Notes under the pieces: model-generated
Seen by the model: the letters and a program-made list of their open reading frames with translations, nothing else
Databases searched by the model: none
What the model was told of the DNA's origin: nothing
Part shown: piece after piece, positions 33,701-51,881 of the stretch
Numbering within the stretch: the first letter of the stretch is position 1
How the letters are laid out: every line of letters begins with the position of its first letter
Source: Pseudomonas pergaminensis
GTDB taxonomy: Bacteria > Pseudomonadota > Gammaproteobacteria > Pseudomonadales > Pseudomonadaceae
Assembly (NCBI RefSeq): GCF_024112395.2
Contig: NZ_CP078013.2
Location: 3,038,001-3,102,000, forward strand
Length of the DNA stretch: 64,000 bases
Direction of reading: 5' to 3'
Program-made: the position numbers and the translations under genes

Positions 33701-36700
33701 GCGACGGGCGCGCTGACTAACCGCGCTGGCGTGGTTGAAAGCGACAGCACCTTGAGTGTGGTGGCTGACAGCGTCGATAACGGCGCTGGCAAACTGCGCG
33801 CTCTGGGCGGCGGGGGCAAGACGCTGTTCCAGATCGGCAACCTGTTCAATAACCGCAACGGTGTGGTGGAAACCGCCAACACCGACCTGACCCTGGCGGC
33901 CAACAGCTTCCTGAATAGCGACGGGCGATTGCTGCACGTGGGCGACGGCAACTTCGACATTTCCCTGCCAAACGTCACCGGCGCCGGTGGCAGCATCGTC
34001 ACGCGGGGCGGCCTTACGCTCAACGCTGACACCTGGAGCAACAGCAGTGTTATCCAGGCGGGGCGATTGAACGTCAACGTCAATAACTTTACCCAGACCG
34101 ACACCGGGCAACTGTTGGCGTCCACGCGCCTGGAAGGCAAGGGCGGCAACTGGACCAACAACGGGCTGATTGCCAGTGACGGCAGCATGGCGCTGCAGTT
34201 GACCGGCACGTATCAGGGCAACGGCAAGGTCAGCAGCGTGGGAGCGCTGGATATGTCGGCAGCGCAACTGACCCTCACTGAACTGGCGAGCATTGCTGCA
34301 GGCGGTGCCACCACGATCAACGCTGCCGGCCAGTTGACCAACCGCGGACGGTTGACCTCCAACAGCGCCTTGACCGTCAACGCAGGTGATGTGACTAACT
34401 TCGGCACACTGGCCAGTGGGCAAAACCTGCTGATCAACGCACAAACCCTGACCAATGACCTCATTCGACAGAATCAAGGCTCGTTGCTGCTCAGTGGCGG
34501 CGACATGAAGTTGCAAGTGGGCACACTGACCAACCGCTACAGCGATATCTACAGCCTCGTCGGGGTTGAGGTGGGCGGGTACAACGGCGCTGAACGTGCG
34601 ACGCGGGTGGATAACCTGTCGGGGCGGATTGAGTCTACGGGGGATATGTCGCTGAAGTCGGCGGTTGTGACGAATAAGATGGAGAGTTTTAGTGTTAAGA
34701 CCACTAACGCCGTCTCTGCCAATATCGGTGTCCGGTGTTTTGGCTGCAACTCTGCCGGGCAGAATGGTGTGTTCAGCTCCCATCTTGTCTGGCAGCAAAA
34801 TTTTAATGTCGAGAGCACCGGGGAGCAGGTGGTCGCCAATATCGTATCCGGCAAAAAGCTGAGCGTGCTGGGCGATAAGTTCGAAAACTTTAACTCGGCC
34901 GTTTCTGCCGTAGGTGACATCAATATTGCGGTCGCTGACTTTAATAACACCGCCAGTTCGCTGGGGAGCTATCAAAGCCTTAAATATATAAATATGCAGC
35001 CCGGCGTTGGGCTGTGGTCGAGAATATTCGCTTATAACGCGGCCAATGATCCGACGTATAACCGCACTATTCACTTCTGGAATGCCGCCGAGCAAGAAAC
35101 CATCGTTGGGCTTAAACAACCCACCGATCGCAACCAGACTATCGCGACCTACAAGTTGAATTTCGGACCGAAAGGGGGCGTCGGTGCTTCTGTTCCTAAA
35201 GCCAACTTCATACCGGGTGTCACCGTCCAGGCACCGGCAGAAATCCTCGGTGCCACCCCATTCGCTGAAAAGATAATTGCCGCCGCAGGGGCGACTTTTT
35301 TACCCGCGATCATTCAAGCTGGCGGTAACGTTTCCATCAACGCCACCAACAAAATCACTAACGGCGTCGAACGCTCTTTCGTTACCACGGCCACCGGCGC
35401 ACCACGCAGCACCAATACCCAAGCCGCAGGCACCGGCAATACCACGGTCATCAACCTCAACCGCCAATTGCCGCCAGACCTCGCCCAACGCAAAGTCGAC
35501 CCACTGACGCTGCCCGGCTTCAGCCTACCCAGCGGCCAAAACGGCCTGTTCCGCGTGAGCGGGCAAGGCACCGCCACCCAGCAAACCGCTCAGTCGGGCA
35601 CTGGCTCGCAAAGCTGGACCATGGGCGGCGCCGATGTAAGCCTGGCCCAGCGTCAGCAGGCGCTTGCTGAAAGCCAAGGCCGTACGCTCCAGCTGGATGG
35701 TGCGACTCAGGTCACGACCAGCACCCGCCAAGTCTCGGTCGCGTCGCGTGAAGCTGGCGGCATCACCGCCGAGGCCCGTGCAATCAATGCCTCAGGCACC
35801 GGCAGCGCCGACACCGTTACCGGTCTTCCGGGCCGCACTTCCGGCGCCGATATCACGCGGTTGGACGGCATCACTGCCGCCAATCAAGCGGGTACGCCCG
35901 CCGTTAACGGTATTGATCTAGCGGGTCTAAACCCTTCCGACCGCGATCCGAGCGCCGCCGTGACCACGCCAGCAGGCACGCCGACCCTGGTTGTGCCGGG
36001 CGTGTCCACCGTGGACCGAAACACCCGCGTCAGCGCCAATCAGGCCGGTGATTTCAACCTGCCCGGCATCACCCCTCTGGCGGCCACAACGGCGGGCGCT
36101 TCCGGGACCGTCAGCGGGCAAACCCTCAACCGCGTGCAAGGCTTGCCGGGCAGCAAGGTAGTCTCGCAGCCGCATAAATACCTGATCGAAACGAACCCGG
36201 TACTGACCGACCTCAAACAGTTCATGAGCTCGGATTACCTGCTCGCAGGGCTGGGCTACAACCCCGACGACAGTGCCAAGCGTCTGGGCGATGGCCTCTA
36301 CGAACAACGACTGATCCAGCAAGCCATTGTCGACCGCACCGGCCAACGCTTCATCGACGGTAAGACCTCGGACGAAGCGGTATTCCGTTACCTGATGGAC
36401 AACGCCATCCGCAGCAAACAGTCGCTGGACCTGTCGGTAGGCGTGTCGTTGACGGGCCAGCAAGTGGCCGCGTTAACCCACGACATCGTGTGGCTGGAAG
36501 AGCAGGTGGTCAACGGTGAAAAAGTCCTGGTGCCCGTGGTGTACCTGGCGCAGGCCGATAATCGATTGGCGCCTAACGGTGCATTGATTGTGGGCCAGGA
36601 CGTCAGCCTTATCGCCGGTAAAAACCTCGAGAACGCCGGTACTCTGCGAGCGAGTAACAACCTGTCGGCCGTCGCGGGCAACGACCTGATCAACAGCGGC

Positions 36701-39667
36701 CTGATTGAAGCAGGTAACCGCCTGGACCTGCTGGCGGGCAATAACATTGTCAATAAATCCGGCGGCATTATCGCCGGACGCGATGTGTCGTTGACGGCCG
36801 TCAACGGCGACGTGATCAACGAACGCAGCGTGACCCGAGCGGGTTATGACGTCGGTTTTTCGAAACAGACTGATTACATCGACAGTGCGGCGCGCATTGA
36901 GGCTGCGAACGACCTCAGCCTCGGCGCGGGTCGCGATGTCACCAGCAAAGGCGGCGTGCTGGAAAGTGGTAATGACACCACGATCGTTGCAGGGCGTGAC
37001 GTCAACCTGATATCTGCGCAGCAGCACGACACCATGAATGGCGGGAAGCGTAATCGTGCCGAGGAAATCACTCAGAGCGGTTCTGACGTAGAAGTAGGGC
37101 GTGACCTGAAAGTCAGCGCGGGGCGTGACTTCACGGCGATCGCCAGCGACATCGAGGCCAAGCGTGATATCTCGATGAGCGCGGGTGGCGACCTGTATCT
37201 GGCGGCAGGTGCAGATGAACAGCACTCTTACAGCAAAACGTCGAGCACCAAACGTCAGGAAGATCACGTCAGTCAAGTCGGTACAACGGTAAGCGCCGGT
37301 CGTGACGTAACTTTAATTGCAGGTAAGGACTTGGCGCTAATTGCCAGTCGTATCAGCGCTGGGGATGAGGCTTATCTGGTCGCAGGTAACAACATAGGAC
37401 TGCTGTCCGCTGAAAACCGCGACTACTCGCTGTACGACATGAAGCGAGGAGGAGGCTTCGGCTCAGGGAAGTCACAACGTGACGAACTCACCAAAGTCAG
37501 CAACGTCGGCAGTGAAATCAAGTCCGGTGGTGACCTTACAATCAAAAGCGTAAGCGATCAGAAGTTTCAAGTTGCCAGGTTAGACAGTGGCGAAGATTTG
37601 ACGATCGTCAGTGGAGGTGCAGTCAGCTTTGAAGGGATGAAGGACCTTCATCAGGAAAGTCATGACAAGAGTAAAAACAGCTTTGCCTGGAATAGCATGA
37701 GCGGTAAGGGCAACACTGATGAAACCTTCAGGCAGACTCAGATGGTTGCCAAGGGAGATATCGTCATCCAGGCAGTAGAAGGTCTGCATATCGATGTAAA
37801 GCAGGTTAGCCAACAGACCGTAAGCCAATCCATTGATGCGATGGTGAAGGCTGACCCCCAACTGGCATGGCTCAAGGAAGCCGAACAACGTGGGGATGTG
37901 GACTGGCGTTTGGTGAAAGAGATACACGAGTCCTACAAATACAGCCATTCAGGGTTAGGAGGCGGGGCGCAGTTAGTCATTGCAATTGTGGTGGCTTATT
38001 TCACGGCGGGACTTGCGAGTGGGTTGATTGGGGCGGGAGCTGAAATTGGTTCAGGCACCGCCATGGCGGCAGCGGGTACGGCATCCGCGTCAGCTGTTGC
38101 AGGTGGCGCGGCAGCCGGTTCAACGGTAGCTGCGGGCTGGGCCAACGTGGCGCTTACTGCGGTAGCAACCAGCGTTGCGAGCAACGCTACCATTAGCTTT
38201 ATCAATAACGGAGGCAATTTAGGTGCGGTGCTTGGGGACATCACGTCCAGCAGTGCACTGAAAAGTTATTTCACTGGCGCTCTTGCGGCAGGGTTTACGG
38301 CAGGGGTCCTGGATCCGGCGTTTGGGGTCACGGGCGATAACCTCAATAAAGTTACGAAGGGATTTGACCTCGGCTCTTTAGCTGATATTGGAAAATTTGC
38401 TGCCTATTCCGGCGCTCAAGGGGTCGCGCAGGCTGCGATTGGCACCGCTATAAAAGGGGGGAGTCTGGGGGATAACCTGAAAAATGCCCTTGGCTCCCAA
38501 CTGCAAAGCACATTGCAGGCGGTTGTTTTCAACGCGGTGGGCGATTACGCCAAAGACAAGGAGTGGGTAGATTCCGGAGGAGAAAAAATTGCGATGCATG
38601 CGTTGGTCGGTGGGTTGTTGAGCCAGGCAGGTGGCGGCAGCTTTGCAACCGGGGCACTTGCTGCGGGCGCCAACGAAGCGCTGGTCACCACACTGTCGAA
38701 AGCAGTGAACAACAACCCCGGTTTGTTGCTTGTGGCATCGCAATTGGTAGGGATCGCTGCGGCAAGCGCTACCGGGGGGGATGTACAAAAGGGCGCGGAT
38801 ATCGCAAAAAGCGCGACGGCATACAACTATCTAAACCACCATGAAGTTGATGATTTGGTCAAGGATTTGAAGGGCTGTCGCAGCGCTGCAGATCCGAAAT
38901 TGTGCCGAACCGATATTGCTGCGCAGTACAAGACGATAAGTGACAAAACGACAAACTCGAAACTCGGTGGATGTGCCGGAGAGACAGGCTGTTTTGAACA
39001 GTTGGAGGTAGTCGATGGAGCTACAAAAGCGCTGGACCAATACGCCTCCGACAAAGACCTTGGACCAGAAGAAAAAAGCATTATTCAAGACTTTCAAGAA
39101 AGTAACTTTCATGATTATGTGATTGCGCGTAACATTTGGTTGTCGGGATTTCTTAAAGAAGTCACACCCATTATTCTCAGTGGCGGTGCAGGTGCGGTCA
39201 CAAAGGCAGAGGGCACTGCAGGGAAAACAGCTGCAGCGGAAACGGAACTTGGCGGGGGTGCAAAAGCAACAGCTACTCCACGCACTCCACTAGCTGGTCC
39301 TACTGAAAACTGGAAAACTTTTGTTAATGCTGAAAAACAGATTCAACTGGAAGCAGGTGCTGGGCAGCGTGTAGATCAAGTGATCAATGAAACTCTATCT
39401 GGTAAGAAAAATTTCACGAGCTCTATGACGCTCACAACCGATGAGGCTCTATCGGCAGGGCAAAAATATCTCGGTCCCGAGTACAGGGAAATCGGTAAGC
39501 CCGGCTCTGGTGTGTTTCACAGCGCTGATGGCACTAAGGAGTTCCGTATCGACTCAGGATCTATATCAGGAGCACACGCTCCGGGAGTTCCGCATGTACA
39601 TTTCGGAGTTAAAGACCCTGTGACTGGAAAATATATTTCTAACAATCATGTTCCCTATGCGGACTAG
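24719..39667 (+). CDS. Filamentous haemagglutinin/CdiA-like giant exoprotein with C-terminal toxin-like module
   Basis: A 4982-residue TpsA exoprotein. An extended signal peptide (to about residue 48, ending PLLAQA) precedes the TPS haemagglutination domain (about 48-210) with NPYGISCNGCGF. Residues about 330-3250 are dense FHA repeats, built from many short LDNxxGxL units arranged in about seven larger blocks. Around 3815-3955 is the pre-FHA2 region (YLLAGLGYNPDDSAKRLGDG), then FHA-2 repeats (about 3958-4295) and a DUF637-like hydrophobic Ala/Gly region (about 4415-4660). Near 4701, AYNYLNHHE stands where VENN motifs usually lie. The last 130 or so residues form a variable tip ending HAPGVPHVHFGVKDPVTGKY then NNHVPYAD, with histidines fitting a nuclease active site. 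The predicted role is surface-displayed contact-dependent inhibition or adhesion. The activity of the tip is inference. Confidence 0.93.
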   Translation: MDVRQFAFLVRQPSAALKSRSTFLGLPKRGVALILANAMFWQPLLAQADGIVVNAPGTTLGQTGNGVPIVNIAAPNANGLSHNQFHDYNVGANGVILNNATDRTQSTQLGGIIVGNPNFRGTAANIILNEVNGGSPSQLRGYTEVAGQSAHVIVANPYGISCNGCGFINTPQATLTTGKAVIENGQINRYQVDQGTVAIEGAGLNASNIDQFEIITRATTINAQIQAKKLTIVAGRNDVDARTLNATARAADGSQAPDLAIDSSALGGMYVGAVKLIGTEAGVGVRLSGDMVAGGDIQIDTAGNVVMGQASAGTAIAVKAASVQTQGAVYAGSDLSVSTQGALTNSQTLAAKNSITLDAGGRLTNSGIIEAGVNADNSRNAQGDVRLSAQAIDNTGKTVIASRDLTLNTGELTNQGGTLSAQRDAQLNTTRLDNQNQGRILSAGNLGINATQLLNSQGGLITSTGNLTAGIGQLINRQGELSSLAQVTLQLNALDNVAGLVSAGQSLSLNVTGQVNNQGGRIAARQSTQLTASGLDNRNGELVATDLVSVTAALDNSSGRIQGDRTLAITSDALTNTLGTLAAGNSLALTAASLDNTQGKLTSDGALTAKIAGQLLNQTGLFAAKGDARLNLGSLDNRQGNVVANNLDLQLDGPLNNQHGTLRAEARFGLKAGEVDNSAGGRISSGQTLTANVVSLDQHNDGRLFGQGDVSLDLNGGHLNNSGGVINAPGRLLLSNLAGVDNTAGEISSSQAFSLAADSLNNAGAKLLSEQALTVRIARALDNTQGLVSANALDLRAGSVDNRGGTLSAGDGLIAQIDGALDNRSGKLLARTATLTSASLDNRQGLLQSDTALNLTSLGAIDNRQGTFSAGQRLDISAASLDNGGGKLVSDGQLTARIAAQLLNRAGLFSAGTFLQVSAASLDNSATGNLNAKGQLAVTLSGALNNDTGTLSSDASLNLKAGQVANSNGGRISSQLQLTASVSGLDQHNGGGLYSQSGVSLDLNHGHLNNQGGLIHAPGALLLSNLASVDNQGGEISSAQALDLTADSLDNRSGKLLSEQGLIVRIARALDNTKGLIASTGLDLRADSLVNAEGELKVRDDVKVLVATALDNRLGKIVGATTALNSQTLDNSAGLLQGDSLLTVSNTGIAINRGGRVISGQRLDLSIGQLDNRGGSVVSAGPMQLRGTTLDNRENGVLNARQSLAVTVDNVDNRGGTVSSVADLNFTGKQFDNSAGGRLLANGALSLTLEQLNNGQGTVRSDNALTLQTTTLNNDSGRISSGAAQQLVTSGALSNRSGELLSAMALTVTSASLDNSGGKLTGDGAVRVTTGALNNRSGGRLTGVDRLDLTAGQVDNRFDGHIASNQALTVSVTDLDQRGGGQLYSLSDLSLDMNHGALNNTGGLIHAPGQLLLKNLSTVANQNGEISSEHAFSVAAQSLDNSNGALLSDQALSLTLDQALINIKGRISAAGLSAQAARLDNTSGVFSSSRDLTLILGADLLNDHGEVSSGGASVVNAMTLNNRNGGQVMGDISLDLTTTGALFNQGGTVGAGQRLNITSASLDNSQSGSLVTDGDLTVKVDGVLDNQSQGAVLAKGVMAIEAGSVDNRAGRLSGQNLLTLRSASLDNRGGAVRANRDVNLQVGQLDNRAGVLNSKQALTITGQSLNNGNGLASAIGPVRLTVDSVDNAKGRIASQDDLNATLGVLNQQDGQLVAQGDLTLKAQSVDNRDGGLLAATKALKLTIDTVDNRAGEISSQQATTLSGQHLDNSGGKLLAGTALELAMAEVINQAKGLVFAQDARFTGTRLDNTDGTFGAQHALAVQLSAGLDNTRGKLSSEGALTLAAQRIDNTGGGISSAGPLTLTSATDLLNNSGTVESAQALALTSASLDNSQGLLKSQGATTLNTGLFNNGVGGRVISADTLDLTATQFNNSGHLASVGILNANLTGLTQLGGAELVSSTQLILDLHNGELVNAGLINAPLLMLNHVASIDNSDGEISSQNAFALAAKNLTNNNGKLISNQALTLRVEQLLANVKGHINAASLDARSTRLDNTDGLLSGRGEVTLSASELIDNTRGSVIADGSLLLTGAALDNRTGEIAGKAQVTVNVDRLDNRNGKLISTDALQLRGATLDNRNGLAGATKALNIEVGSIDNRAGELTGNADMTVTGQSLNNSDKGVVFAGAALSLAVDQVINRTLGELNGQRLNLTGTSLDNTGGKLLSQQPLVLALAGDLDNSQGVLSSEGALDVKARSLNNSQGSLSSAKGLSVAVSGTLNNQQGKLVTDGGLTLGSASLGNQQGVISGKGPVVLTTGELNNQAGRLNSGDTLTLTTAQLNNGGSIGSAKALTASVSGLAQQGGKLFSNAGLSLDLNNGQLDNQGGLINAAGPLLLNRLATVANNNGEISSGQAFTLAAQSLDNSNGKLLSNQALIVRVDQALSNVKGLFGSASLDAHAAAVDNRGGTLTSRGDLRLTSDGLLSNGDRGLINAAQALNVRSADLNNQNGSLLGGAVTLNAMALDNTASGLINSQSSLNLTAASLNTGTGGEVSAKGAMTLGLTALAVAGGRIIGEQGMSLDLNGSDLDNRNGLILANGPLTLNNLRDLNNSNGEISSQQGFSLTARSLDNSGGKLISSQTLGVNAASLNNSAKGLLSGAQGLNVSGGNLDNRDHGTLVSRNGSIDMRLSGTLQNNTEGALVSQGRLDVSAASVDNRGSGVLSSGAGQTLAVTGALVNGDGGLIESGDTLGVQAATLANQGTINAQRAFTFTGTDLTNNGGSLLSNGQVTLDLLGNLNNSGGKIASVGPLLLQRANQVYNDADGKIISQSLLTLLAGGLDNSERGTIAGKERVVITTAGIVQNHTDGLIYSQDADVQLNAAGLNNAKGNVQGQTGLGLGINGDVDNRGGTLASLKGLLDARLTGGLNNGGGIIQAQGLNLIANRVDNQTGRIAAQTGDAVINASAFANANGGVYAKGLVRVAGQTLDNSAGQIAGGVIDLSATGALTNRAGVVESDSTLSVVADSVDNGAGKLRALGGGGKTLFQIGNLFNNRNGVVETANTDLTLAANSFLNSDGRLLHVGDGNFDISLPNVTGAGGSIVTRGGLTLNADTWSNSSVIQAGRLNVNVNNFTQTDTGQLLASTRLEGKGGNWTNNGLIASDGSMALQLTGTYQGNGKVSSVGALDMSAAQLTLTELASIAAGGATTINAAGQLTNRGRLTSNSALTVNAGDVTNFGTLASGQNLLINAQTLTNDLIRQNQGSLLLSGGDMKLQVGTLTNRYSDIYSLVGVEVGGYNGAERATRVDNLSGRIESTGDMSLKSAVVTNKMESFSVKTTNAVSANIGVRCFGCNSAGQNGVFSSHLVWQQNFNVESTGEQVVANIVSGKKLSVLGDKFENFNSAVSAVGDINIAVADFNNTASSLGSYQSLKYINMQPGVGLWSRIFAYNAANDPTYNRTIHFWNAAEQETIVGLKQPTDRNQTIATYKLNFGPKGGVGASVPKANFIPGVTVQAPAEILGATPFAEKIIAAAGATFLPAIIQAGGNVSINATNKITNGVERSFVTTATGAPRSTNTQAAGTGNTTVINLNRQLPPDLAQRKVDPLTLPGFSLPSGQNGLFRVSGQGTATQQTAQSGTGSQSWTMGGADVSLAQRQQALAESQGRTLQLDGATQVTTSTRQVSVASREAGGITAEARAINASGTGSADTVTGLPGRTSGADITRLDGITAANQAGTPAVNGIDLAGLNPSDRDPSAAVTTPAGTPTLVVPGVSTVDRNTRVSANQAGDFNLPGITPLAATTAGASGTVSGQTLNRVQGLPGSKVVSQPHKYLIETNPVLTDLKQFMSSDYLLAGLGYNPDDSAKRLGDGLYEQRLIQQAIVDRTGQRFIDGKTSDEAVFRYLMDNAIRSKQSLDLSVGVSLTGQQVAALTHDIVWLEEQVVNGEKVLVPVVYLAQADNRLAPNGALIVGQDVSLIAGKNLENAGTLRASNNLSAVAGNDLINSGLIEAGNRLDLLAGNNIVNKSGGIIAGRDVSLTAVNGDVINERSVTRAGYDVGFSKQTDYIDSAARIEAANDLSLGAGRDVTSKGGVLESGNDTTIVAGRDVNLISAQQHDTMNGGKRNRAEEITQSGSDVEVGRDLKVSAGRDFTAIASDIEAKRDISMSAGGDLYLAAGADEQHSYSKTSSTKRQEDHVSQVGTTVSAGRDVTLIAGKDLALIASRISAGDEAYLVAGNNIGLLSAENRDYSLYDMKRGGGFGSGKSQRDELTKVSNVGSEIKSGGDLTIKSVSDQKFQVARLDSGEDLTIVSGGAVSFEGMKDLHQESHDKSKNSFAWNSMSGKGNTDETFRQTQMVAKGDIVIQAVEGLHIDVKQVSQQTVSQSIDAMVKADPQLAWLKEAEQRGDVDWRLVKEIHESYKYSHSGLGGGAQLVIAIVVAYFTAGLASGLIGAGAEIGSGTAMAAAGTASASAVAGGAAAGSTVAAGWANVALTAVATSVASNATISFINNGGNLGAVLGDITSSSALKSYFTGALAAGFTAGVLDPAFGVTGDNLNKVTKGFDLGSLADIGKFAAYSGAQGVAQAAIGTAIKGGSLGDNLKNALGSQLQSTLQAVVFNAVGDYAKDKEWVDSGGEKIAMHALVGGLLSQAGGGSFATGALAAGANEALVTTLSKAVNNNPGLLLVASQLVGIAAASATGGDVQKGADIAKSATAYNYLNHHEVDDLVKDLKGCRSAADPKLCRTDIAAQYKTISDKTTNSKLGGCAGETGCFEQLEVVDGATKALDQYASDKDLGPEEKSIIQDFQESNFHDYVIARNIWLSGFLKEVTPIILSGGAGAVTKAEGTAGKTAAAETELGGGAKATATPRTPLAGPTENWKTFVNAEKQIQLEAGAGQRVDQVINETLSGKKNFTSSMTLTTDEALSAGQKYLGPEYREIGKPGSGVFHSADGTKEFRIDSGSISGAHAPGVPHVHFGVKDPVTGKYISNNHVPYAD

Positions 39668-39670
39668 GAT

Positions 39671-39880
39671 ATGGATATGTCTATCGTTCGGAAGGGTATT
39701 GTTATCACTGGCGAATATTCTGGTTGGGAAATTGTTGTTGCGGACGACCGTGATGGCGACACTGGCGGGTATTATCTTTACTTGAAGAAAAGTGATGTTG
39801 AAGGGTTTGACTACTGGTTCGAGCATGAGGCAGGGCTTCAGGCTCAGCTAGTTGATTTTGAGGTGGAGTGGATAGTTTAG
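39671..39880 (+). CDS. Candidate immunity protein for the exoprotein tip
   Basis: A 69-residue acidic protein that starts three bases after the stop of the giant exoprotein (an alternative ATG at 39677 has a better-spaced AGGA). It is rich in D and E and in aromatic residues (DDRDGDTGGYYLYLKKSDVE, DYWFEHE), with no signal peptide, so it should stay in the cytoplasm. Position, size and charge are those of an immunity protein that neutralises the toxin tip in the producing cell. I do not recognise the family; the assignment rests on context. Base composition is clearly less GC-rich than the exoprotein body, like the tip itself, as expected for an exchangeable toxin-immunity cassette. Confidence 0.72.
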   Translation: MDMSIVRKGIVITGEYSGWEIVVADDRDGDTGGYYLYLKKSDVEGFDYWFEHEAGLQAQLVDFEVEWIV

Positions 39881-39904
39881 TAAGTTAATTAGCATGGCTT
39901 TTAT

Positions 39905-40270
39905 TTGGCCGTCGGTGCAAAAAAAATAGTTAATGCCACTTCCCATAAGGCTGACGATATTCGTTTTTCGCAGAATACCGTTACATTCAATAAGACAGAT
40001 AAAGATGGGGGAGCTTTCACTTATAGCGATCTAGTGAAAAGTATGAAGTCTAATGGGTGGAAGGGCGATCCGGTGGATGTGGTAAGGATGCCTGATGGGA
40101 AGTTGAGCTCTATTGACAACACTCGTATTGCTGCGGCCAGGGAGGCAGGGATAGATGTCAAAGCAACAGTTAGAGGGTTTGATGATTTGCTTAGCGCCTC
40201 TGAGATAAAGCGATTTACAATTCCCAAGAAAGGATTTGTTCCCAAAATGTCGGCGCTGATTGAAAACTGA
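39905..40270 (+). pseudogene. Orphan toxin tip (spare CdiA/Rhs C-terminal module), cut by an IS
   Basis: A frame of about 120 residues without a convincing start (TTG 39905 is the first possibility; stop TAG at 39890). The core (VTFNKTDKDGGAFTYSDLVK, GWKGDPVDVVRMPDGKLSSI, DNTRIAAAREAGIDVKATVR) resembles a ParB-nuclease-like C-terminal domain that I associate with Rhs and haemagglutinin toxins. It is not joined to the exoprotein and follows the immunity candidate, the usual place for a silent spare toxin tip. The IS21-family element begins at 40248, so the last eight residues (MSALIEN and the stop) come from the IS and the natural end and its immunity gene are missing. Confidence 0.68.
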
Positions 40271-40416
40271 CCCACCCTGCCGATTGAAAAATGACCCAGG
40301 ACGGATTGCTGATTTTTGCCCCAGCAATTGTGGATAAGCTTAGCAGTCGTGATCCGGTTGACGATGCATCAAGCCCCGCCACATGTAGGCATGCAGCAGG
40401 GCGCTTATGACGCGGA

Positions 40417-41220
40417 TCAAAACGGCTGATCGTCCTCGTTATCATCTCCATCCTTGCGCTTTCGTTCTCGTGATTTGATCTTTGTCTGGGCGGCCAAGGT
40501 GCTGTGTTGAAGGCGGTAAGACTCGTTGCCCGTTTCGACGATGTGGCAGTGGTGTGTCAGCCGATCCAGCAACGCCGTAGTCATCTTGGCATCACCAAAT
40601 ACGCTCGACCATTCTGAGAAGCTGAGGTTGGTGGTGATAACCACGTTGGTGTGCTCGTACAGTTTGGACAGCAGGTGAAATAACAGAGCGCCGCCACTCT
40701 GGCTGAAGGGCAAATACCCCAGCTCATCAAGTATCACCAGGTCTGTGCGAAGCAGCCCCTGGGCGATCCGTCCTGCCTTGCCATCGTACTTTTCACGCTC
40801 CAGCAGATTCACCAGATCCACCGTAGAAAAGAAGCGCACGCGTTTGTTGTGGGTCGTGATTCCGGATACAGCCAAGGCACTGGCCAGGTGTGTTTTTCCA
40901 GTTCCCGGCCCACCAATGAACACGACATTCTGCGCGGTCTCAGTGAATGCCAAGCTGGATAGATCGCTGACCAACCGGGCATCAGCGCTGGAAGCGCTGA
41001 AGTCAAAGCCGGCTAAATCACGGTGCATGGGGAGTTTTGCCATGTTCATCTGGTGGTTCACCGAGCGCACCGCGCGATCCGCCTGTTCCTGTTGAAGCAG
41101 ATGCTCCAGCAGCCATTTCGATGAAGCCGTCGAGGCGGCTCCTTGAGAGACCAGTTCGTCCCAAGCACTGGCCATGCCGTGCAGGCGCAGTTCTTTGAGT
41201 TCTGTCATTAAGTCACGCAT
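40417..41220 (-). CDS. istB: IS21-family helper ATPase IstB
   Basis: A 267-residue AAA+ transposition helper protein. The start at 41220 ([20 protein letters not shown]) has GAGGAG upstream and overlaps the istA stop, the usual coupled arrangement. Walker A is visible as [11 protein letters not shown], Walker B as [12 protein letters not shown], and sensor-1 as VVITTNLSF. IstB selects target DNA and stimulates the IstA transposase. It appears intact, but with istA broken the element could move only if IstA came from elsewhere. Confidence 0.93.
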
Positions 41221-42711
41221 TGCGGTTCTCCTCATCGGTCGTACGGAGCCGGTCGTAGCGAGCCGTATTGGCAACAGGCGCCACCTTGAGTTGCAGGCTG
41301 GTTTCTACGCAGGGAGGTGGTGCCGTGGAGGTCAGGCGGGCAAGAACATTGAGGATGTGATCGGCGCTCAGACTTCCCGATTCAAGTACCAGCTCCACGG
41401 CCACCAGCACCGGTTCGAGACCGGCGATAGGCACAGCAGCCAGTACCTGCATCATGATTCGATCACCGTTGGTGTGACGCCTCAGTCCCCGCTTGAGAAG
41501 CAGCAACGGCTTCGGTAGATCGGCAAATGGCGCGCCATTACGCAGTGCACCGGGCTTGCGTTCGATAAGCGGGATGTAATGCTGCCAGTCAAAACTGGCC
41601 TGATCTCGATCAAAGAGGCGCTCGTGACTGGCAATCACCGTTTCATCGGCGATGACCACGATCCGGGATGGATAAAGACGACTGCTAACCCACTGGCCGA
41701 CGCGCTCACATGGCACTGAATAGCGATTTCGCGCCACGCTAATCAGGCAGGTGCTGGAGACCCGCACGGTACGTTCGACGTAGCCATCAAACGCTGTCGG
41801 CATCGGCATCATTTCGACCCGCTCCAGCTCCAAGACCTCCGCCACCGTCAGCCCGTTGTACTGCGGATGCACCAGCTCGCTCCAGAGTTTCCGGCAGCGT
41901 TGACCGAGCCAGATATTCAGTTCTTCAAAGGTGTGGAACATGCAGTTTTGAGCATCGAGCCAGATACGCCGCCGGCTGTCCTGTACGTTCTTTTCGACGA
42001 TGCCCTTTTTCCCAGCCGGAGGCTACGTTGCAGAAGTCGGGATCGAACAAGTAGTGGGCACACATGACAGCAAACCGGGCATTCACCGTGCGGCCTTTGC
42101 CTTTGTTGACCTTGTCGACAGCCGTTTTCATGTTGTCGTAAATGCCGCGACGCGGCACTCCGCCAAGCGCTTCAAACGAGCGTGTATGAGCGTCGAACAA
42201 CATTTCGTGCCCTTGGCTGGGATAAGCAACCAACCAGAACGCACGACTGGCACACAGCTTCATGCGGGAGACCTGGATGCGTCGAAACAGGCCGCCGATA
42301 GCAGACCTTCTTCGCTCCAGTCAAATTGAAAGGCCTCACCCAGAGCAAAAGTCAGTGGCACAAAAGCGCGTAAAAACTTGCCTTGCTCACCTCGCCAAGA
42401 GCTTACAAACGCCGTGAGCTGGCTGTAGCCGCCGTCGTAACCCTCGGCCTTGATCTGCTCGAAAAGCGCTTTAGCGCTCCTGCGGTTGTGTTTTGGCCGG
42501 AACGAATCGGCCTTGAGCGCCTGTTCCAGCGTCTCGTGGAAAGGGCTGAGTTTGTTGAAGGTTGCGCACCGTTGGTACGCCGGCTGAGTGGCTTCGGGCG
42601 CTCTGACCCATTTCGGATGGTGTTTCTAGAAAGCCCGGTACGCTTGGCTATCTGATGCAGCGAGAGCTTGTCGCGGAAGTACATCCGCCGGATTTTTCCC
42701 AACATTTCCAT
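41213..42711 (-). pseudogene. istA: IstA transposase, broken by at least three small indels
   Basis: The IS21-family transposase reads in pieces. From 42711, MEMLGKIRRMYFRDKLSLHQ continues to TGLSRNTIR, where the frame is lost (about 42600). A second loss falls after FDWSEEGLL (about 42300), just before a frame reading MKLCASRAFWLVAYPSQGHE, and a third at a five-A run after NVASGWEK (about 42005). The frame then resumes to the stop at 41213 (FEELNIWLGQRCRKLWSELV). Each break is explained by one missing or extra base. The helix-turn-helix and most of the catalytic core remain recognisable. As read, no functional transposase can be made. Confidence 0.85.
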
Positions 42712-42834
42712 GCTGATCACCCTGTGTTCTCCTGCTCGAAAAGTGAGCAGAAGCAGTTGAACACCTGGGTCAGTTTTCAGTCGGCAGAACAGCCTCTACT
42801 GGGTCAGCTTTCGGTCAGCGGCAACAGAGTGGGG

Positions 42835-42922
42835 AACCACTGCCGTATAGGCAGCTCAGAAATTACTGTTGATGTCAGCAAGGATCTGTTGAGAATTCAC
42901 TGCCGTACAGGCAGCGGGACCT
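42835..42922. CRISPR. Relic type I-F CRISPR mini-array (two degenerate repeats, one 32-base spacer)
   Basis: Two 28-base units at 42835-42862 and 42895-42922 enclose exactly 32 bases, giving the 60-base period of type I-F arrays. The first unit keeps the CTGCCGTATAGGCAGCT stem-loop core and the AGAAA end of the I-F repeat consensus I remember and differs at about four positions. The second keeps TTCACTGCCG and AGGCAGC, but its last seven bases have diverged, as terminal repeats do. No third repeat and no cas gene is nearby. The IS21-family element ends eight bases to the left. It is probably a fossil. Confidence 0.72.
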
Positions 42923-43111
42923 TGGTCAGGCTTGGTATAGAGCTTTATGGTGAGCAGGTTTGTTCCGTTAGATTGTTATTCCTGTGATACTGAATGGCCA
43001 TATTTCGCCTCACCGGTTGTCGCCAAACACTTTGATGATGCCGGCAGTTCATTGCTGTCTGCTTAGCTCGGAAGAGGGACGACGTAGCCATAAACGACTA
43101 AAGGACACTAT

Positions 43112-46100
43112 ATGAGCTTGGATAGCCATCCTGCCAAGGCCATGCCATCGAACAATACCGCCACGGGCAGCAACGCAAGCTCCTCGGCGGGAGCCGTCGC
43201 TGCACTAGCAGGTTATGACTATCAGCTCAATGTATCGGAGCTGGCGGCTCTTCGGCTGCTGCTGATTACTAAATCTGCCACGAGCCTGACTTTGGAACCT
43301 GCCAATGAAGAGGATCTGGAGGCTGATTTAGAACCCTTTGAACCGAGTCCGGTAGTCCCTAAGGCATCCTTGGCCAACGGGTACAAGTTGGTCATGCAGG
43401 TGAAGTTTTGTTCGGGTGATCCTTGGTCGGTTGCGGACTTCACCAGCCTGCTCAACCACGGTAAAAAACGACGGCCTGCCAAGCATCACCTTGATGATCC
43501 CGACACCCATTTCCTGCTGGTGACCAACGCAGACGCGACAGGTGTTACTCGCGATCTGCTCGTCTCGGATTTTGAGGAAAAACCCGATCCGGCTTCGTTT
43601 CCACCCTCACTCAGACAGACACTGACGAAGACCCCAGAGGGTCGTGTAGCCATCTGGGGAGGACTTACTAACGAGCTCATAGAGTTCAAGATCAGGGAGA
43701 TCCTGTCTGACTTGCTGCGCATTCCTCACTCTCGCCTGAAGGCGTGTCGTGAGAAGCTGAGGTCAGAGTCACTCCGTCGCATGCGTGGCACAGGCCCTGG
43801 GGTCTGGACTCGCGATGAACTACTGGCCATCGTACGTGAGCATGGTGGCTTTCTGGCGAGTGCGGCGGAGCTGGACGCGTTTGTCGAACCCTCTAATTTT
43901 GAGGCGATGCTGTCCCACTTTCGTAAGCAAGGCGCCATTGTCATTACCGGTCCTTCCGGGACGGGCAAGACACTTGCTGCACTTGCGCTGTGTGAGCGGG
44001 CCCGGTTAGCGGCGCCAGGCCTTGATGTCGTCACGGTGAATCCTGCCGAAGGTCCGTCAGTTACAAGACGCCTGGTCAATTCAGGTCCCACATTATTTTA
44101 CCTGGAGGACCCCTGGGGGCAGTACAGCCTCAGATCGGGTTCTGAGAGTTGGACGGAGCAATTGCCCAAGTTGCTACCTGGTGCACGCGCTGGCAACCAG
44201 TACGTGGTCACGTCACGTGCTGATGTAATGAGGGAGGCTGAGGCGGAGCGGGGTCTTAAACTATGGTCAATGGAACTCAATGCTGATCACTACAGCGACG
44301 GCCAACTGGCTAAAATCTATGAGAAACGCATGGCCGCGATCGCCACGCCCCTGCAGCCCAAAGCTCTGGAATTCAAGCGCGAAGTGCTCGCAGCCTTGGA
44401 GACACCACTGGAGCTGGATCTGTTTTTCACAAACCTCTCTGAAGGTCCTGAGGCCGGCGAGCCGGATTATGCTTTTCTAAGCCGCCTACTAGACCTAGCT
44501 CATCGCGATGCGGTCGAGGGTGTTGTCGTCAAGTACCTGAAAGCGGTAGACCAAATAGGGCTGTCGGCTGTGGTGTGGGGGCTGGTGGCGGCGCGTGGTC
44601 ATTTCGATCGAGAACAACTGAGTGCTGTCCTGCGCCGATTGCGCCGCATTGATCCTCCCTTGGGAGCGCAATTGGACGGTGCTGTTGATCGGATGATTGC
44701 AGCTCGACATTTACGCCAGCCCAACCGTAAGGTCACCTTCTCCCATACGAGCGTTCGCGCAGGCTTTGCGACGTTTCTCAAAAAAAACTGGTCCTGCAGT
44801 GAAAGCGCTCTCAATGCGCTTTTATCAGCCCTGGTTTCATTGACCGGCGACCAGCGTGACTGGGGATTGGAGACCGCTGCACGTGTCTTGAGTAAGGCGC
44901 TCAGTTTCAGTGAGGATCTGACGGACAGTTATGACGTGTTTGCAGTGGATCATGCCAGTCAAGTCGCGATTGATGAATGGCTTGATGAGTCGCTTTTCGA
45001 TCCTCGCTCTGAGCTTATGCCTCTGCTAGAGCTCGCTGCTGATATCGGATCCGTCGACTCCATCCCTTCAGAGGTTGCCCGCTGGATAACCAAGGGGCGA
45101 AGGAGAGGCGGGGGCTTCTTCATTGATGGTTGGGCGCCGCCAACGTTTAGCGACAAGTGGTACGACCGTGTGTGCGCCGATCCTCGCTCGGCGGTGATCG
45201 TGGAACGTTTCGTGCGCAAGTATTTGTCACAAGATTTCGGAGAGTACAGTCGGCACTTCGTGCCTCAGCTTGATCGGATTGCCCCTGGGTTGGCGCCGGC
45301 TTTTATCGAGGTGGCGCATACTCTAGTCGGTACCCCCTTCCATTCAAATGCTCATGTGATTGCCGCGGGAGCTATAAGGGACTTGCCGGGATACGAGGCC
45401 GTGTTAGTCGAAGCCTTGGCAGAGCTTGAGGCGTTACGGTTGCCAAACCCGCGAAATGTCAAAGAGTGGACAGCCATTGAAGACGGTGAGCACGACATTA
45501 CGTATGAGGAATGGTACTACTCTCGACCAGATGATGAAGGTGAGGCTTCACGCATTCTTGTTGCGACTTACGTTTCAACTAAGCGCTCCTCGGGATACTG
45601 GCAGCACCTTGCCAATCATCATCATGCCAAAAGCTTGGTCAACGAGTGGGCGCGCAACATTCAAGACTCTAGGCTTAAAACCGGTGAGGATGAGCTACTC
45701 AGCATTTTGAACATTGCCTTGGGCAGTAACAGTGAGGATCTCGCGTGGAGAGTTGCTCACAAGCGTTGGTACCCTTCGCTGGAAAAACCGTTGCTGGATC
45801 GAATGCTTTCCTTGCCTGAGGATGAAGACCTTCGCAATTCGCTCATGCTCTGTGCTTACACTGTCGCTCCCGCAGTCCTGGTTGAATGCTTCAAGGCACT
45901 CATGAGTTCACCGGTGGCCCTCATTCACCTTTTGGTGGACTTCAGCGTGGTGGTGAAGGAGGAGGAGGGCAGTCTTTTTGACCTGCGTTTTCTCCCTATT
46001 GAGGCCACGGAAATCCTGGGTGCTCTTTGTGCTACGGGCCCCTCACAAGGTGTTGGAGGTCCGGCGCTGTCTTTGCTGGAGTCTGCTGCGTCAGATTGTT

Positions 46101-47119
46101 CATTGACCGTTCTGGCTCGGATTGTGCCGATCATGATTGCGAGTGGCGGTGTGCCGACGAGTAACATCGAGCGCTGGCTGGATGAAAGCATAGAGGCTGC
46201 GAGCGCACTCGCAGCGGCGCAAGCGGCAATAGCAATAGACAGTGAGCCGCTCGTCTGGCGTGCCTTGAGTCATCGCCGTGCTGACGCCCGCTGTGCGGCA
46301 CTTGAATACCTGGCACCTAGGCTACCGGATCCGTTGCCCCTTCAGTTTCTCGATCTGAAGAGTGATCGAGGAAGCCGAGTGCGCCTTGCACTCGTTAACG
46401 AGTTGAGCAACCGACCACATGCAGACCATTTACCGGTCTTGATGGCAATGTCGAAAGATCGCTACTCAGAAGCTAATGCAGCCTATGACGAGCCAACCTT
46501 TTACCGGATTGCACGCGAGGCAGTGAATGCGCTTGAGGGGTACGGGGAGCTGTCTTATGAGCATGGAAGGCAGCTTATCGACTTGGCGAGAGCGACCGAA
46601 GATCGCACCTTGCGCCGTATTGCACTCACAACCGCTGCCAGCCTGTGTGAGGCCGAAATCCGCCAGCAGATTTGGGCCATATTGAAGAATAAGGACCTAC
46701 TGCCGTGGGCCCGTGCCGACGCCACAGAGGCATTGGCTTTGGCGCCTTTTGTTGAAGCAGACATTCTGAGTAAGATCACCCCCAAGCGGTTGATGAGTGT
46801 GTCTGCAACATTAGCTGCTTCACTCACGGCCTTGGTGAGCCGGCATTTTCCTGTCGCTGAGGCTGCCACCTTCCTTGAGCAGATTGGGAAGTCTCAGACA
46901 CACCGAGCCTTACTGCTGCTGGGCGTCTACGAGCTGGAAAGTCGTGATCTTGCAGTGGCTATGGGGCTTCTTGATCTACTGGATGATGGTCACCCGGCTC
47001 GAAAACTACTTGATGACGACGGCACACTCTTACCGTCTAACGTGCTCGATGACCTTGGCGATGTCAGAATTCGCAAGCGGGTAGGGGAGTGGCTGAAGGA
47101 TCGTATTGAGGAAAATTAG
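43112..47119 (+). CDS. STAND NTPase (nSTAND3-type) with N-terminal Cap4-like nuclease domain
   Basis: A 1335-residue protein with AGGA six bases before the ATG. Residues about 25-200 resemble the DUF4297/Cap4 dsDNA-nuclease domain: GAVAALAGYDYQ, an acidic EEDLEADLE, then QVK at 96-98, the PD-(D/E)xK catalytic half. A STAND NTPase follows, with Walker A GPSGTGKT at 280-287 and Walker B LFYLEDPWG at 328-336, the latter typical of nSTAND3. The rest (about 420-1335) is helical with weak HEAT/ARM-like repeats (RADARCAALEYLAPRLP, RGSRVRLALVNELSNRP), suited to sensing a target. This is the plan of antiphage Avs-like proteins: a phage protein binds the repeats, the protein oligomerises and the nuclease degrades DNA. 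That role is inferred from architecture and neighbours. Confidence 0.85.
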   Translation: MSLDSHPAKAMPSNNTATGSNASSSAGAVAALAGYDYQLNVSELAALRLLLITKSATSLTLEPANEEDLEADLEPFEPSPVVPKASLANGYKLVMQVKFCSGDPWSVADFTSLLNHGKKRRPAKHHLDDPDTHFLLVTNADATGVTRDLLVSDFEEKPDPASFPPSLRQTLTKTPEGRVAIWGGLTNELIEFKIREILSDLLRIPHSRLKACREKLRSESLRRMRGTGPGVWTRDELLAIVREHGGFLASAAELDAFVEPSNFEAMLSHFRKQGAIVITGPSGTGKTLAALALCERARLAAPGLDVVTVNPAEGPSVTRRLVNSGPTLFYLEDPWGQYSLRSGSESWTEQLPKLLPGARAGNQYVVTSRADVMREAEAERGLKLWSMELNADHYSDGQLAKIYEKRMAAIATPLQPKALEFKREVLAALETPLELDLFFTNLSEGPEAGEPDYAFLSRLLDLAHRDAVEGVVVKYLKAVDQIGLSAVVWGLVAARGHFDREQLSAVLRRLRRIDPPLGAQLDGAVDRMIAARHLRQPNRKVTFSHTSVRAGFATFLKKNWSCSESALNALLSALVSLTGDQRDWGLETAARVLSKALSFSEDLTDSYDVFAVDHASQVAIDEWLDESLFDPRSELMPLLELAADIGSVDSIPSEVARWITKGRRRGGGFFIDGWAPPTFSDKWYDRVCADPRSAVIVERFVRKYLSQDFGEYSRHFVPQLDRIAPGLAPAFIEVAHTLVGTPFHSNAHVIAAGAIRDLPGYEAVLVEALAELEALRLPNPRNVKEWTAIEDGEHDITYEEWYYSRPDDEGEASRILVATYVSTKRSSGYWQHLANHHHAKSLVNEWARNIQDSRLKTGEDELLSILNIALGSNSEDLAWRVAHKRWYPSLEKPLLDRMLSLPEDEDLRNSLMLCAYTVAPAVLVECFKALMSSPVALIHLLVDFSVVVKEEEGSLFDLRFLPIEATEILGALCATGPSQGVGGPALSLLESAASDCSLTVLARIVPIMIASGGVPTSNIERWLDESIEAASALAAAQAAIAIDSEPLVWRALSHRRADARCAALEYLAPRLPDPLPLQFLDLKSDRGSRVRLALVNELSNRPHADHLPVLMAMSKDRYSEANAAYDEPTFYRIAREAVNALEGYGELSYEHGRQLIDLARATEDRTLRRIALTTAASLCEAEIRQQIWAILKNKDLLPWARADATEALALAPFVEADILSKITPKRLMSVSATLAASLTALVSRHFPVAEAATFLEQIGKSQTHRALLLLGVYELESRDLAVAMGLLDLLDDGHPARKLLDDDGTLLPSNVLDDLGDVRIRKRVGEWLKDRIEEN

Positions 47120-47426
47120 TCTTACGTCAAATGTGTCGGGTGCTAGACCGCTCAGCGGTTCACTGAATCGATTTCTCCACCCGTTACAACCTTGATTACG
47201 ACGTTGCCTTGTCGATTTGCAACCAGTCACCAACGTGCTCGATAGCGAATCCATTTCCCGAACGATGAACCCCTAGGTGGGTAGGGTACAACTTGACTAT
47301 CGATTCGGTAATTTCCGCCCGGTCTGGGCTGATCGGAGCGGTACCATTGATAGGTTGGTGGATGAGAAGACACGGGTGCATCCAGTGCCTTACTATGCCC
47401 CAACTGACATAGCGTTTCTTCCATTC
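47120..47426. other. Gap between the STAND gene and the NERD-helicase gene
   Basis: No gene is evident. A short perfect inverted repeat, ACCGCT-C-AGCGGT, lies shortly after the STAND stop, but it has no T-run and is not a clear terminator. The end of the gap may belong to the next gene if translation starts at GTG 47277. Confidence 0.4.
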
Positions 47427-49805
47427 ATGGCCAAATTCTTTCCAGCACTCGATCATGCGGAATTCCGCAGCAAAGGCGAATTTACGCTTTTTCAGGAACT
47501 AGCGGCACTTGACGATGGGTTTGTCGTCATCCATTCGCTACCTTGGCTACGCGGCCGGACAAAGCGGGTGTACTCGCAGGATCTGCAGGACTACCTGCGA
47601 GTTTCCTTAGAGAGAAGGCACCTGTCTGGCGAGGTGGACTTCGTAATCTTACATGCGGAGCTGGGTATGCTTTGCATAGAGACGAAGTCAGGTTTGTATC
47701 AGCCGTCGGGCGTTCGATTCATTCACGAACGTCACGGTTATGAAATCGATCCTCTGAATCAGGTCAAGGACAACGCTTTCGTCCTCGTCGATATGTTGCA
47801 ATCGTGGCAGATGAAGTGCCCAGTCGGTTATGCAGTGCATTTTCCAGACTTCGATCTGGAGAGCTCGCAAATCGCCAGTGCATACGTGCCGCTCGACCGG
47901 CAGTTGCCCGACGGTATTCTAATCCTCCAAAAGCACCGTCAGGACATGCCTTCGCGCATCGTGCAATTGATGGCGCACTGGAAGTCCGCACTGAACTACG
48001 ACATCAAGGATAATTTCAGCCATGAAATCAAACAATTTCTCGACTCCGTCTGGCCGCGGGAATTACGGGACGGGGCTCTTGGCCGGAAAATTGTTGCGGA
48101 CAGCGAGTTGTGGCTTCAATTAGACAAAAAGCAGGCGAATCAGGTGGCATTGTGCGTAGACTCTGATCGAAGGTTGATCGCGGGATTTTCGGGCAGCGGC
48201 AAGACGTTGATAGCGCGTTCTCTTGCTGAGCAGTTTGTCGCTCGGGACCTCAAGGTACTGTTCCTTCTGAAGAACCGCCAGATTACGCATAAGGTGGCCG
48301 CTCAATTGAGCCAGTTTGGCCGGGCGGTGACTGTTCAAACCTTTCATTCCTACTGCGAGTCCCAGGGCAAGCGGAACAGGGAAAACAGCTCCGGCGAGCC
48401 CAACTATGACGAGCATCACCTAGCCCTGCATGGGTCGGTAGATCAACAGTACGCGGCGTTGATCGTCGATGAGGCCCAGGCGCTCAATGAGGCCGATCAC
48501 TTGGCGCTGCGCGACCATTTCGCCAACGCACGCAAGTTCGTTTTTGCTGATGAGCTCCAGGTCCTACCCGGGATCGAAAAAGGCAGTTCCTATCGATTTC
48601 TGGAGGATACCTATGGCGAGCGATTCTTCTATTTGGCAACGGTCTACCGGAATCCCGGAGGCATCACTCAGACGATGATGGAGATGCTACCGCCACGACA
48701 TGAGGTGAATTGCCCTCGGCCGATCTCCGTGGAGGACTTGTCCAGAAGCATTAGCTGGGATGTCTCCAAGACAATCCAGACCATGATGGCGAGCCTTGCT
48801 AAATCAGGTGTGATGAACGAGGACTTGATCGTGCTAAGTCAGTTCTCCTCGTCGCTTGATGAGATCAAAGTTCCACGCTCCACGATCTCGGCGTATCGCG
48901 GTATGGAGGCGCCAGTCGTCATCGTCGTAGCAGGCTTCGAAATGGATGACATCACATTGGCTTGCGCTCTCGGGCGAGCTACCACTCGTGCCTATATCAT
49001 CGTACCTATCGAACTGCTTGTGGGTCAGAGCAGCGTAAAATCAGATTTCCTGCGCAAAGGCTTGGAGAATATTGATCGAAAATCAGTGCTCGATCAGGAT
49101 GCCCGTGCTCCGGCCCCACGATTTATCGTTAACAGAATGCGAAAATACGCCGACTTGTACGGAAGACACGAAATCTTCGGCGAAGGATTTGTTTACGCAA
49201 GCCGATGGAGGCGGTGGGTATATGAAGGCGGCGGCAGGTGGAGCAATCGCGGAGTTCAGCTTTGGGGCTGGTGGATATCGCTATCGACAGGTCTTCCCAT
49301 AGCTGGAATCGACGTTGTGCGTAATGAACTGACAGAGGGCTATCTTAAGCCCTGCACCGAATGCAATACGATGACACCGCATAACATGTATGGCGCATGT
49401 CTGACTTGCCTCGTGGAGCCATTGGACGAGGCCAAGGTTTTTGAGGTCGCCCAGCAGGCGGTTGAATTGGGTACTGCGCGATCAATGAAACGCGGGCAAT
49501 CTTTAATCAAGGTGGCGGCACTGGTCGGCAATTTTGAATTTCCGCGCTCTAATGACCCTGTGTGTGGGATTACTGAAGTCCCTGTCCTATTCCTCGCCAC
49601 TACGATCGTCGAGTTTCGGATGCGCAACGAGGCGACCGTTGCCACCAAATCCCAAGTAGTACAATGGTTGCGGGAAGGGTTGGTACCCAGTGATTTAGAT
49701 GACTCCATCGAGAGCATTGCGGGCCGCGCGATAGGCAGTCTCTGTGGGCAGAAGCTCATGGTGAAGATTGAGGCCGGAAAGTACCGGCTTACCGATTCTC
49801 AATAG
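47427..49805 (+). CDS. NERD nuclease - SF1 helicase - zinc-ribbon fusion protein
   Basis: A 792-residue protein counted from ATG 47427; the frame is open to GTG 47277, but NERD proteins typically begin like MAKFFPALDHAEFRSKGEFT. Residues about 10-130 form a nuclease-related (NERD) domain with the restriction-fold residues GEVDFVILH, then IETKSG (E69, D71, E85, K87). The superfamily-1 helicase part has Walker A GFSGSGKT (253-260), Walker B VDEAQ (347-351), VYRNPGG and AYRGMEAPVVIVV. Two CxxC pairs (643/646, 658/661) form a zinc ribbon, followed by a winged-helix-like tail. NERD-helicase fusions occur in defence islands and may degrade foreign DNA. It is separated from the STAND gene by 307 bases, so a shared operon is possible but unproven. 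Confidence 0.85.
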   Translation: MAKFFPALDHAEFRSKGEFTLFQELAALDDGFVVIHSLPWLRGRTKRVYSQDLQDYLRVSLERRHLSGEVDFVILHAELGMLCIETKSGLYQPSGVRFIHERHGYEIDPLNQVKDNAFVLVDMLQSWQMKCPVGYAVHFPDFDLESSQIASAYVPLDRQLPDGILILQKHRQDMPSRIVQLMAHWKSALNYDIKDNFSHEIKQFLDSVWPRELRDGALGRKIVADSELWLQLDKKQANQVALCVDSDRRLIAGFSGSGKTLIARSLAEQFVARDLKVLFLLKNRQITHKVAAQLSQFGRAVTVQTFHSYCESQGKRNRENSSGEPNYDEHHLALHGSVDQQYAALIVDEAQALNEADHLALRDHFANARKFVFADELQVLPGIEKGSSYRFLEDTYGERFFYLATVYRNPGGITQTMMEMLPPRHEVNCPRPISVEDLSRSISWDVSKTIQTMMASLAKSGVMNEDLIVLSQFSSSLDEIKVPRSTISAYRGMEAPVVIVVAGFEMDDITLACALGRATTRAYIIVPIELLVGQSSVKSDFLRKGLENIDRKSVLDQDARAPAPRFIVNRMRKYADLYGRHEIFGEGFVYASRWRRWVYEGGGRWSNRGVQLWGWWISLSTGLPIAGIDVVRNELTEGYLKPCTECNTMTPHNMYGACLTCLVEPLDEAKVFEVAQQAVELGTARSMKRGQSLIKVAALVGNFEFPRSNDPVCGITEVPVLFLATTIVEFRMRNEATVATKSQVVQWLREGLVPSDLDDSIESIAGRAIGSLCGQKLMVKIEAGKYRLTDSQ

Positions 49806-51631: not shown

Positions 51632-51760
51632 CGTTTCGACTCCAATGAAGGAGCCGAAAGCGTAGCAGTGGGGGAGGCGGATGTCCTGAGCCACCCGTGA
51701 GTTAAGGGCATGAAACGGCTTAGAGTGAGGGGTCAGCATTCGCCAAAAGCTGCCGATGCG

Positions 51761-51787
51761 ACAGGCAGCAGACGGCCAAAAGCGGAC
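51761..51787. repeat. Intergenic repeat copy 1 (ACAGGCAG..CGGCCAAAAGCGGAC)
   Basis: A 27-base stretch with 24 bases identical to a second copy at 57568-57594. Similar text is scattered in many Pseudomonas intergenic regions; its role is unknown. It lies just upstream of the OLD-like gene. Confidence 0.5.
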
Positions 51788-51881
51788 TGCCGTTAAGAGT
51801 AGCCACGTCTACGTAGACGACGTGATGGCTTTTCGCTTACCTTCGTGCCCATTCGCGTTCGATCAACAAGGACAAACGGAC

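Follow-up and report, generated by a model that had tools for sequence, protein, structure and literature searches.

Positions 42835-42922 of the window, by which we mean the whole 64,000-nucleotide stretch of Pseudomonas pergaminensis DNA analysed here (G000:C1:3038001-3102000, from a genome assembled as a single contig of 6.6 Mb), carry a type I-F CRISPR unit that consists of two 28-nt repeats around one 32-nt spacer, with a period of 60 (28+32). We consider this unit most probably, at roughly 0.8, to be the leader-distal stub of a lost type I-F array that is decaying without selection. The first-pass annotation had described the locus as a fossil type I-F array, and this description is supported by the repeat, the spacer length, the decayed terminal repeat, a PAM-flanked protospacer on plasmids and the lack of any match to Csy4, Csy3 or Cas1.

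All parts of the unit are read on the forward strand. The first repeat (AACCACTGCCGTATAGGCAGCTCAGAAA, 42835-42862) retains an intact hairpin and 3' TCAGAAA and departs from the consensus in its first three nucleotides; it is followed by the spacer (TTACTGTTGATGTCAGCAAGGATCTGTTGAGA, 42863-42894), whose protospacer lies in a plasmid dndB-like gene, and by the second, terminal repeat (ATTCACTGCCGTACAGGCAGCGGGACCT, 42895-42922), in which the stem is intact in the window and the 3' tail is decayed. The claim of two degenerate I-F repeats exactly 32 bases apart is thereby confirmed. Compared with the commonest I-F repeat among the Pseudomonas genomes displayed (CTTCACTGCCGTATAGGCAGCTCAGAAA), copy 1 is changed only in its first three bases (AAC; AGC in Pseudomonas cichorii), so that its core had rightly been called intact, and copy 2 is changed at the first position, at one loop position and throughout the last seven bases. 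The loss of these seven bases had been likened to the decay of a terminal repeat, and the likeness holds: the terminal repeats of three other arrays of the genus (L014, L015, L016) are decayed in the same manner, which is why copy 2 looks like a leader-distal end. The CTGCC-loop-GGCAG hairpin within a 28-nt repeat, compared with other arrays of the genus, is that of type I-F, as are the spacer length and period given by the one spacer of exactly 32 nt, and the core and TCAGAAA tail are those of other Pseudomonas arrays. The hairpins of the two window repeats are predicted to fold at -8.6 and -9.9 kcal/mol. An 18-mer core, allowing up to 3 mismatches, occurs at two places in the window, both in the array (shuffled sequence gave a mean of 0.15 matches, and at least two in 2 of 100 shuffles), and two cores at period 60 were found in 11 of 95 genomes, compared to 0 of 95 with a reversed-pattern control. 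The Rfam model CRISPR-DR4 scored copy 1 at 32.2 bits (E 1.9e-5) and copy 2 at 21.1 bits (E 0.047), both below the gathering score of 35.

The spacer matches 29 plasmid records across all 32 nt, at best with 30/32 identities: 4 records at 93.8% (E 3e-5), 9 at 90.6% (E 1e-3) and 16 at 84.4% (E 0.7), the last of these individually non-significant and annotated as DndB in 15 of 16 cases. Altogether, 28 of the 29 matched genes are annotated as DndB and one as hypothetical. Eight of the 29 protospacers were read (5 of the 13 closer ones and 3 of the 16 at 84.4%), and CC, the type I-F PAM, stands directly 5' of the protospacer in all eight. The comparison of the spacer with phage and plasmid sequence that the first-pass annotation had proposed, with a CC PAM in view, thus led to plasmids. 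The best phage matches are gapped and fall in cyanophage capsid genes (31 nt at 90.3%, E 6e-3), and a phage origin was set aside because the plasmid match is better (E 3e-5, ungapped over 32 nt, with a PAM); viral contigs gave no match to a 29-nt pattern of the spacer in which one position was left free. The target gene encodes a DndB protein of family PF14072 (E 1e-81), and two plasmids that carry the dndB-like target, pPp1290 and pGRT1, are typed as conjugative; the DndB-family gene was seen at L040:2331-3938 and L041:2331-3938 on conjugative Pseudomonas plasmids. Within the 3-kb flanks on pPp1290 and pGRT1, no further dnd gene is listed in the gene table of the collection, which is incomplete, and an ArdR-annotated antirestriction gene lies near the dndB-like gene in pGRT1 (L041). 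The plasmid DndB-family gene is possibly an anti-defence candidate. The match and the PAM are observed, and the spacer was probably acquired from a dndB-like gene of a conjugative plasmid.

A one-genome-per-species scan with the 28 fixed spacer bases returned one record, P. cichorii MAFF 302096, which carries the same mini-array with an identical 32-nt spacer. Among 398 genomes of the genus searched with up to 3 mismatches, the spacer is present in three, namely, the window's own, P. cichorii and G280, and the place in G280 is a two-mismatch protospacer on the reverse strand. All 8 protospacers read are mismatched by the spacer at the same two positions, 3, which is within the seed, and 20, and these are the same in both species; mapped onto dndB, the difference at position 3 is synonymous and that at position 20 would replace F307 by L. 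Because both species carry the same spacer letters, the shared mismatches would reflect either drift before the block was shared or an unsampled dndB variant as the source.

The homology to P. cichorii extends over 42826-49829 (7004 nt, 98.5%) and spans the stub and two forward-strand genes, an nSTAND3 NTPase gene of 1335 aa (43112-47119), which is the downstream neighbour of the stub, and a NERD-domain/SF1 helicase-like gene of 842 aa (47277-49805). The nSTAND3 protein has a weak NCBIfam match, and the helicase-like protein has partial matches to PADLOC models, the best to RTasNERD-Hel (E 9.7e-26); together, the two genes (43112-49805) form a candidate defence system. A 574-nt DNA query found some match in 38 of the 398 genomes and a full-length match in two, the window's own and P. 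cichorii. The window and P. cichorii differ at 2/88 positions in the array, 0/189 in the adjacent intergenic stretch, 25/4008 in the STAND gene and 73/2529 in the NERD gene, small numbers, too few for a rate test, that give no apparent sign of special conservation of the array. Megablast of the common block against the plasmid collection gave no match; as a possible mobile element, it is a stretch with 98.5% identity between two species and undefined borders. At its right edge (49829-49982), P. cichorii has about 470 extra bases, followed by 170 bases of homology (92%), and further to the right in the window, 51756-53891 encode a defence-like AAA ATPase with an OLD-like TOPRIM domain. On the other side of the stub, P. 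cichorii DNA further upstream matches a TIGR03747 integrating-conjugative-element gene (2 plasmid records, 70%); a query from this region gave some match in 9 of 119 genomes of the genus. These matches leave uncovered the approximately 180 nt adjoining the P. cichorii stub, apart from 29 nt of it in G012, and when the same 180 nt are read as 61 residues, no plasmid match is obtained. About 57 kb past the right end of the window, L089 (G000:C1:3159037-3159184) matches, at 74% on the DNA level, the conjugative-element gene region found upstream in P. cichorii.

To the left of the array lies an IS21-family element (40248-42826, reverse strand), with the ends TGTCGGCGCTGATTGAAAACTGACCC and TGTTGCCGCTGACCGAAAGCTGACCC, IstB as one 285-aa ORF and transposase matches split over two ORFs (41925-42263 and 41213-41941). 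The array had been placed next to an IS21 end, and indeed only 8 bases (42827-42834, forward strand) lie between them, identical in P. cichorii. The end of the element coincides exactly with the left border of the P. cichorii homology, and the sequences that border it, CCCAAAA to the left and GAGTGGGG to the right, show no target-site duplication. Upstream of the stub, P. cichorii has other DNA, without this element, and IS21 as the cause of the stub is therefore rejected: it is a later neighbour. On the far side of the element, the stretch 24719-40270 holds a 4982-aa ORF, whose repeats were recognised by eye as filamentous-haemagglutinin-like, and a small ORF (39905-40270) that runs into the IS21 end.

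We searched the window genome for the Csy4, Csy3 and Cas1 families and found no match to any of them, while the E. coli control genome was positive each time; the search comprised these three families, with Cas8f, Cas5f and Cas3 outside it, and a plasmid absent from the assembly is possible. The original remark that there are no Cas proteins in the window accordingly extends, for Csy4, Csy3 and Cas1, to the whole genome, and the search for cas6f/csy genes suggested along with it found neither Csy4 nor Csy3. The alternative offered at the same time, a mini-array still readable by an I-F effector elsewhere in the genome, is thus unlikely as judged from the three families. Since no cas genes of its type were matched (Csy4, Csy3, Cas1), the locus is an array remnant rather than a system, and the stub is inert in the window strain, as no Cas6f or Csy3 was found. 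When Csy4 was tested in 33 genomes of the genus, that is, the 38 matching the 574-nt query minus five in which the listed match lies in the STAND gene only (G007, G095, G106, G137, G340), 14 were found to have it and 19 to be without. Among the 19 are the genome of the window itself and G280, whose match is its protospacer; in at least 9 of the 17 others (G006, G009, G037, G115, G294, G370, G382, G392, G430), the repeat lies within the listed match, and the arrays themselves were inspected for G006, G009 and G037. I-F repeats without Csy4 therefore do not look rare in the genus Pseudomonas, and as a fossil the stub looks ordinary.

The search for leader DNA that had likewise been proposed found none beside the stub in the window or in P. 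cichorii. When the 160 nt upstream of either stub were compared in the forward sense with 8 I-F leaders, five of them from P. cichorii itself, 33-186 of 200 shuffles reached the score, and in the reverse sense 16-155 of 200 did so, with two exceptions, both for the P. cichorii upstream sequence, against leaders L019 and L027 (4 and 5 of 200, at the low scores 22 and 21). In the leader-leader controls, which were positive, the score was reached by 0 or 1 of 200 shuffles. No promoter-like site was found in 42650-43150, a result that is little informative because shuffles average only 0.4 such sites.

The state of the repeats differs between the two species. The mature crRNA extends, by the cleavage rule, over an 8-nt 5' handle, the spacer and the hairpin, and nearly all of these bases are intact in the window copy; its 3' part departs only in the first base and one loop base, and the GTACA loop is also seen in array L014. 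In repeat 2 of P. cichorii, a stem G is replaced by A, which takes the fold of the lone repeat from -9.9 to -4.3 kcal/mol with another structure; when the whole 60-nt P. cichorii crRNA is folded, its minimum-energy structure still contains the damaged stem, with a mismatch in it (-9.5 vs -16.2 kcal/mol).

Taken as a remnant, the stub would comprise the last spacer and terminal repeat of the array, along with the nearly whole repeat that precedes them. Its separation from the leader and cas genes would have preceded the sharing of the 7-kb block between the lineages, as suggested by the identical spacer, the identical 8-nt border and the lack of a leader in either species. An IS21 insertion 8 nt upstream of repeat 1 would have followed in the window strain, and the exact coincidence of the borders, along with the missing target-site duplication, suggests that DNA to the left of the element would subsequently have been lost or replaced. 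The spacer mismatches at positions 3 and 20 to all 8 protospacers read and the stem change in repeat 2 of P. cichorii speak for decay. Several points count against it: nearly all bases of the mature crRNA are intact in the window copy, the damaged stem still forms in the predicted 60-nt P. cichorii crRNA, an identical 32-nt spacer in both species would follow from maintenance too, and an unsampled dndB variant may account for the spacer mismatches.

A different, improbable reading is that the repeat-spacer-repeat of the block lets resident I-F Cas proteins exclude conjugative plasmids bearing dndB. P. cichorii encodes Cas1f, Cas2-3f, Csy1, Csy2, Csy3 and Csy4, a full I-F system, and the contig that bears these genes also has several I-F arrays with the same core, some with the TCAGAAA tail, so that reading of its stub in trans would in principle be possible. 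The unit lies beside the same two defence-like genes in both species, its plasmid target is PAM-flanked, and excerpts of two papers describe viral mini-arrays that use host CRISPR (PMC11656645) and suggest host Cas use for plasmid orphan arrays (PMC9071438). However, the absence of a leader and the mutated second stem, the latter in the very species that bears the Cas proteins, make the P. cichorii stub probably inert or weak; the promoter search, as far as it is informative, points the same way, seed position 3 is mismatched to all 8 protospacers read, and STAND homologues at 46-48% (L043-L045) have no adjoining repeats. Quite improbable, too, is the more elaborate proposal of a transferable nSTAND3 and NERD-helicase cassette that carries its own one-spacer I-F guide against the dndB-like gene of rival plasmids and borrows the I-F Cas proteins of a recipient when these are present.

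In CreTA, a spacer partially matches a promoter, and Cascade represses it. A guide regulating the neighbouring nSTAND3 gene in this way is very improbable: the unit and the STAND start codon, 189 nt apart, are on one strand, and unit and gene are shared together, but the best spacer match in 42923-43130 is only 16/32 on either strand, by which regulation through the nSTAND3 promoter is mostly refuted. Moreover, the sole CC-flanked site in the window that passes the seed filter (about 46692, reverse strand) lies inside the STAND gene and agrees at 15 of 27 counted positions, the window genome has no match to Csy4, Csy3 or Cas1, and no repeats were seen at the STAND homologues inspected. I-F-like repeats, sought over 25 nt with up to 8 mismatches allowed, are absent from 13 further loci that hold STAND homologues or fragments; these loci represent 9 separate sites in 9 genomes, mostly with about 1.5 kb per side, and leave out L051-L057.

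There is similarly little reason to regard the unit as an RNA anti-CRISPR (Racr), a repeat mimic that would sequester Cas6f and Cas7f. It resembles a Racr in being an I-F repeat without cas genes, and one Racr against I-F is already known, but the excerpted description presents Racrs as solitary repeat units, often directly after a promoter (PMC10651486), whereas here two repeats enclose a 32-nt spacer with a PAM-flanked protospacer. Finally, a dispersed Pseudomonas palindrome that is CRISPR-like by chance, which the first-pass annotation had itself held up against its own reading, is hardly credible: the core is a short palindrome, and CTGCCGNNNAGGCAG occurs at 8 places in the genome, but the I-F flanks are missing at 6 of the 8, a 223-nt query spanning the region has no second match in the genome, and the full-length match to the plasmid dndB-like gene over exactly 32 nt, with a CC PAM in 8/8 read, identifies a genuine CRISPR unit. 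A longer palindrome, CAGCCCTGCCGATAAGGCAGGGCTGCC, is present in two copies 627 bases apart (L007 and L008, G000:C1:4901856 and 4902483); these are not CRISPR repeats.

The remnant of a lost array is thus best compared with the type I-F arrays of Pseudomonas, with which it has in common the 28-nt repeat, the core, the TCAGAAA tail, the 32-nt spacer, the CC PAM, a plasmid target and a decayed terminal repeat, and from which it differs in its single spacer, the lack of a leader, the absence of a Csy4, Csy3 or Cas1 match and the altered 5' end of repeat 1. Orphan arrays on plasmids are well described, with decay and use in trans as the two readings given in the excerpted source (PMC9071438); like them, the stub is short, cas-less and plasmid-targeting, but it lies on the main contig, in a block without a plasmid megablast match. 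The mini-arrays known from viruses to exploit host CRISPR, as excerpted (PMC11656645), similarly have one spacer and repeats resembling those of a related host, a likeness that holds here for core and tail in P. cichorii, where, however, the stem is mutated; the window host has no Csy4, Csy3 or Cas1 match. In the titles and abstract openings of the literature on orphan or degenerate arrays and on plasmid DndB, the locus is not named, and a search for I-F arrays of P. cichorii brought up no paper. The finding is correct, and it is of a kind already known.

These observations indicate that CRISPR memory can outlive its system: the stub keeps a recognisable plasmid target and occurs in two species, in both of them joined to defence-like genes of another kind. 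Were the P. cichorii mini-array active, guides for a resident CRISPR system could be delivered by defence cassettes, and if the cassette were to carry its own guide as proposed, a stand-alone defence would be combined with a borrowed one.
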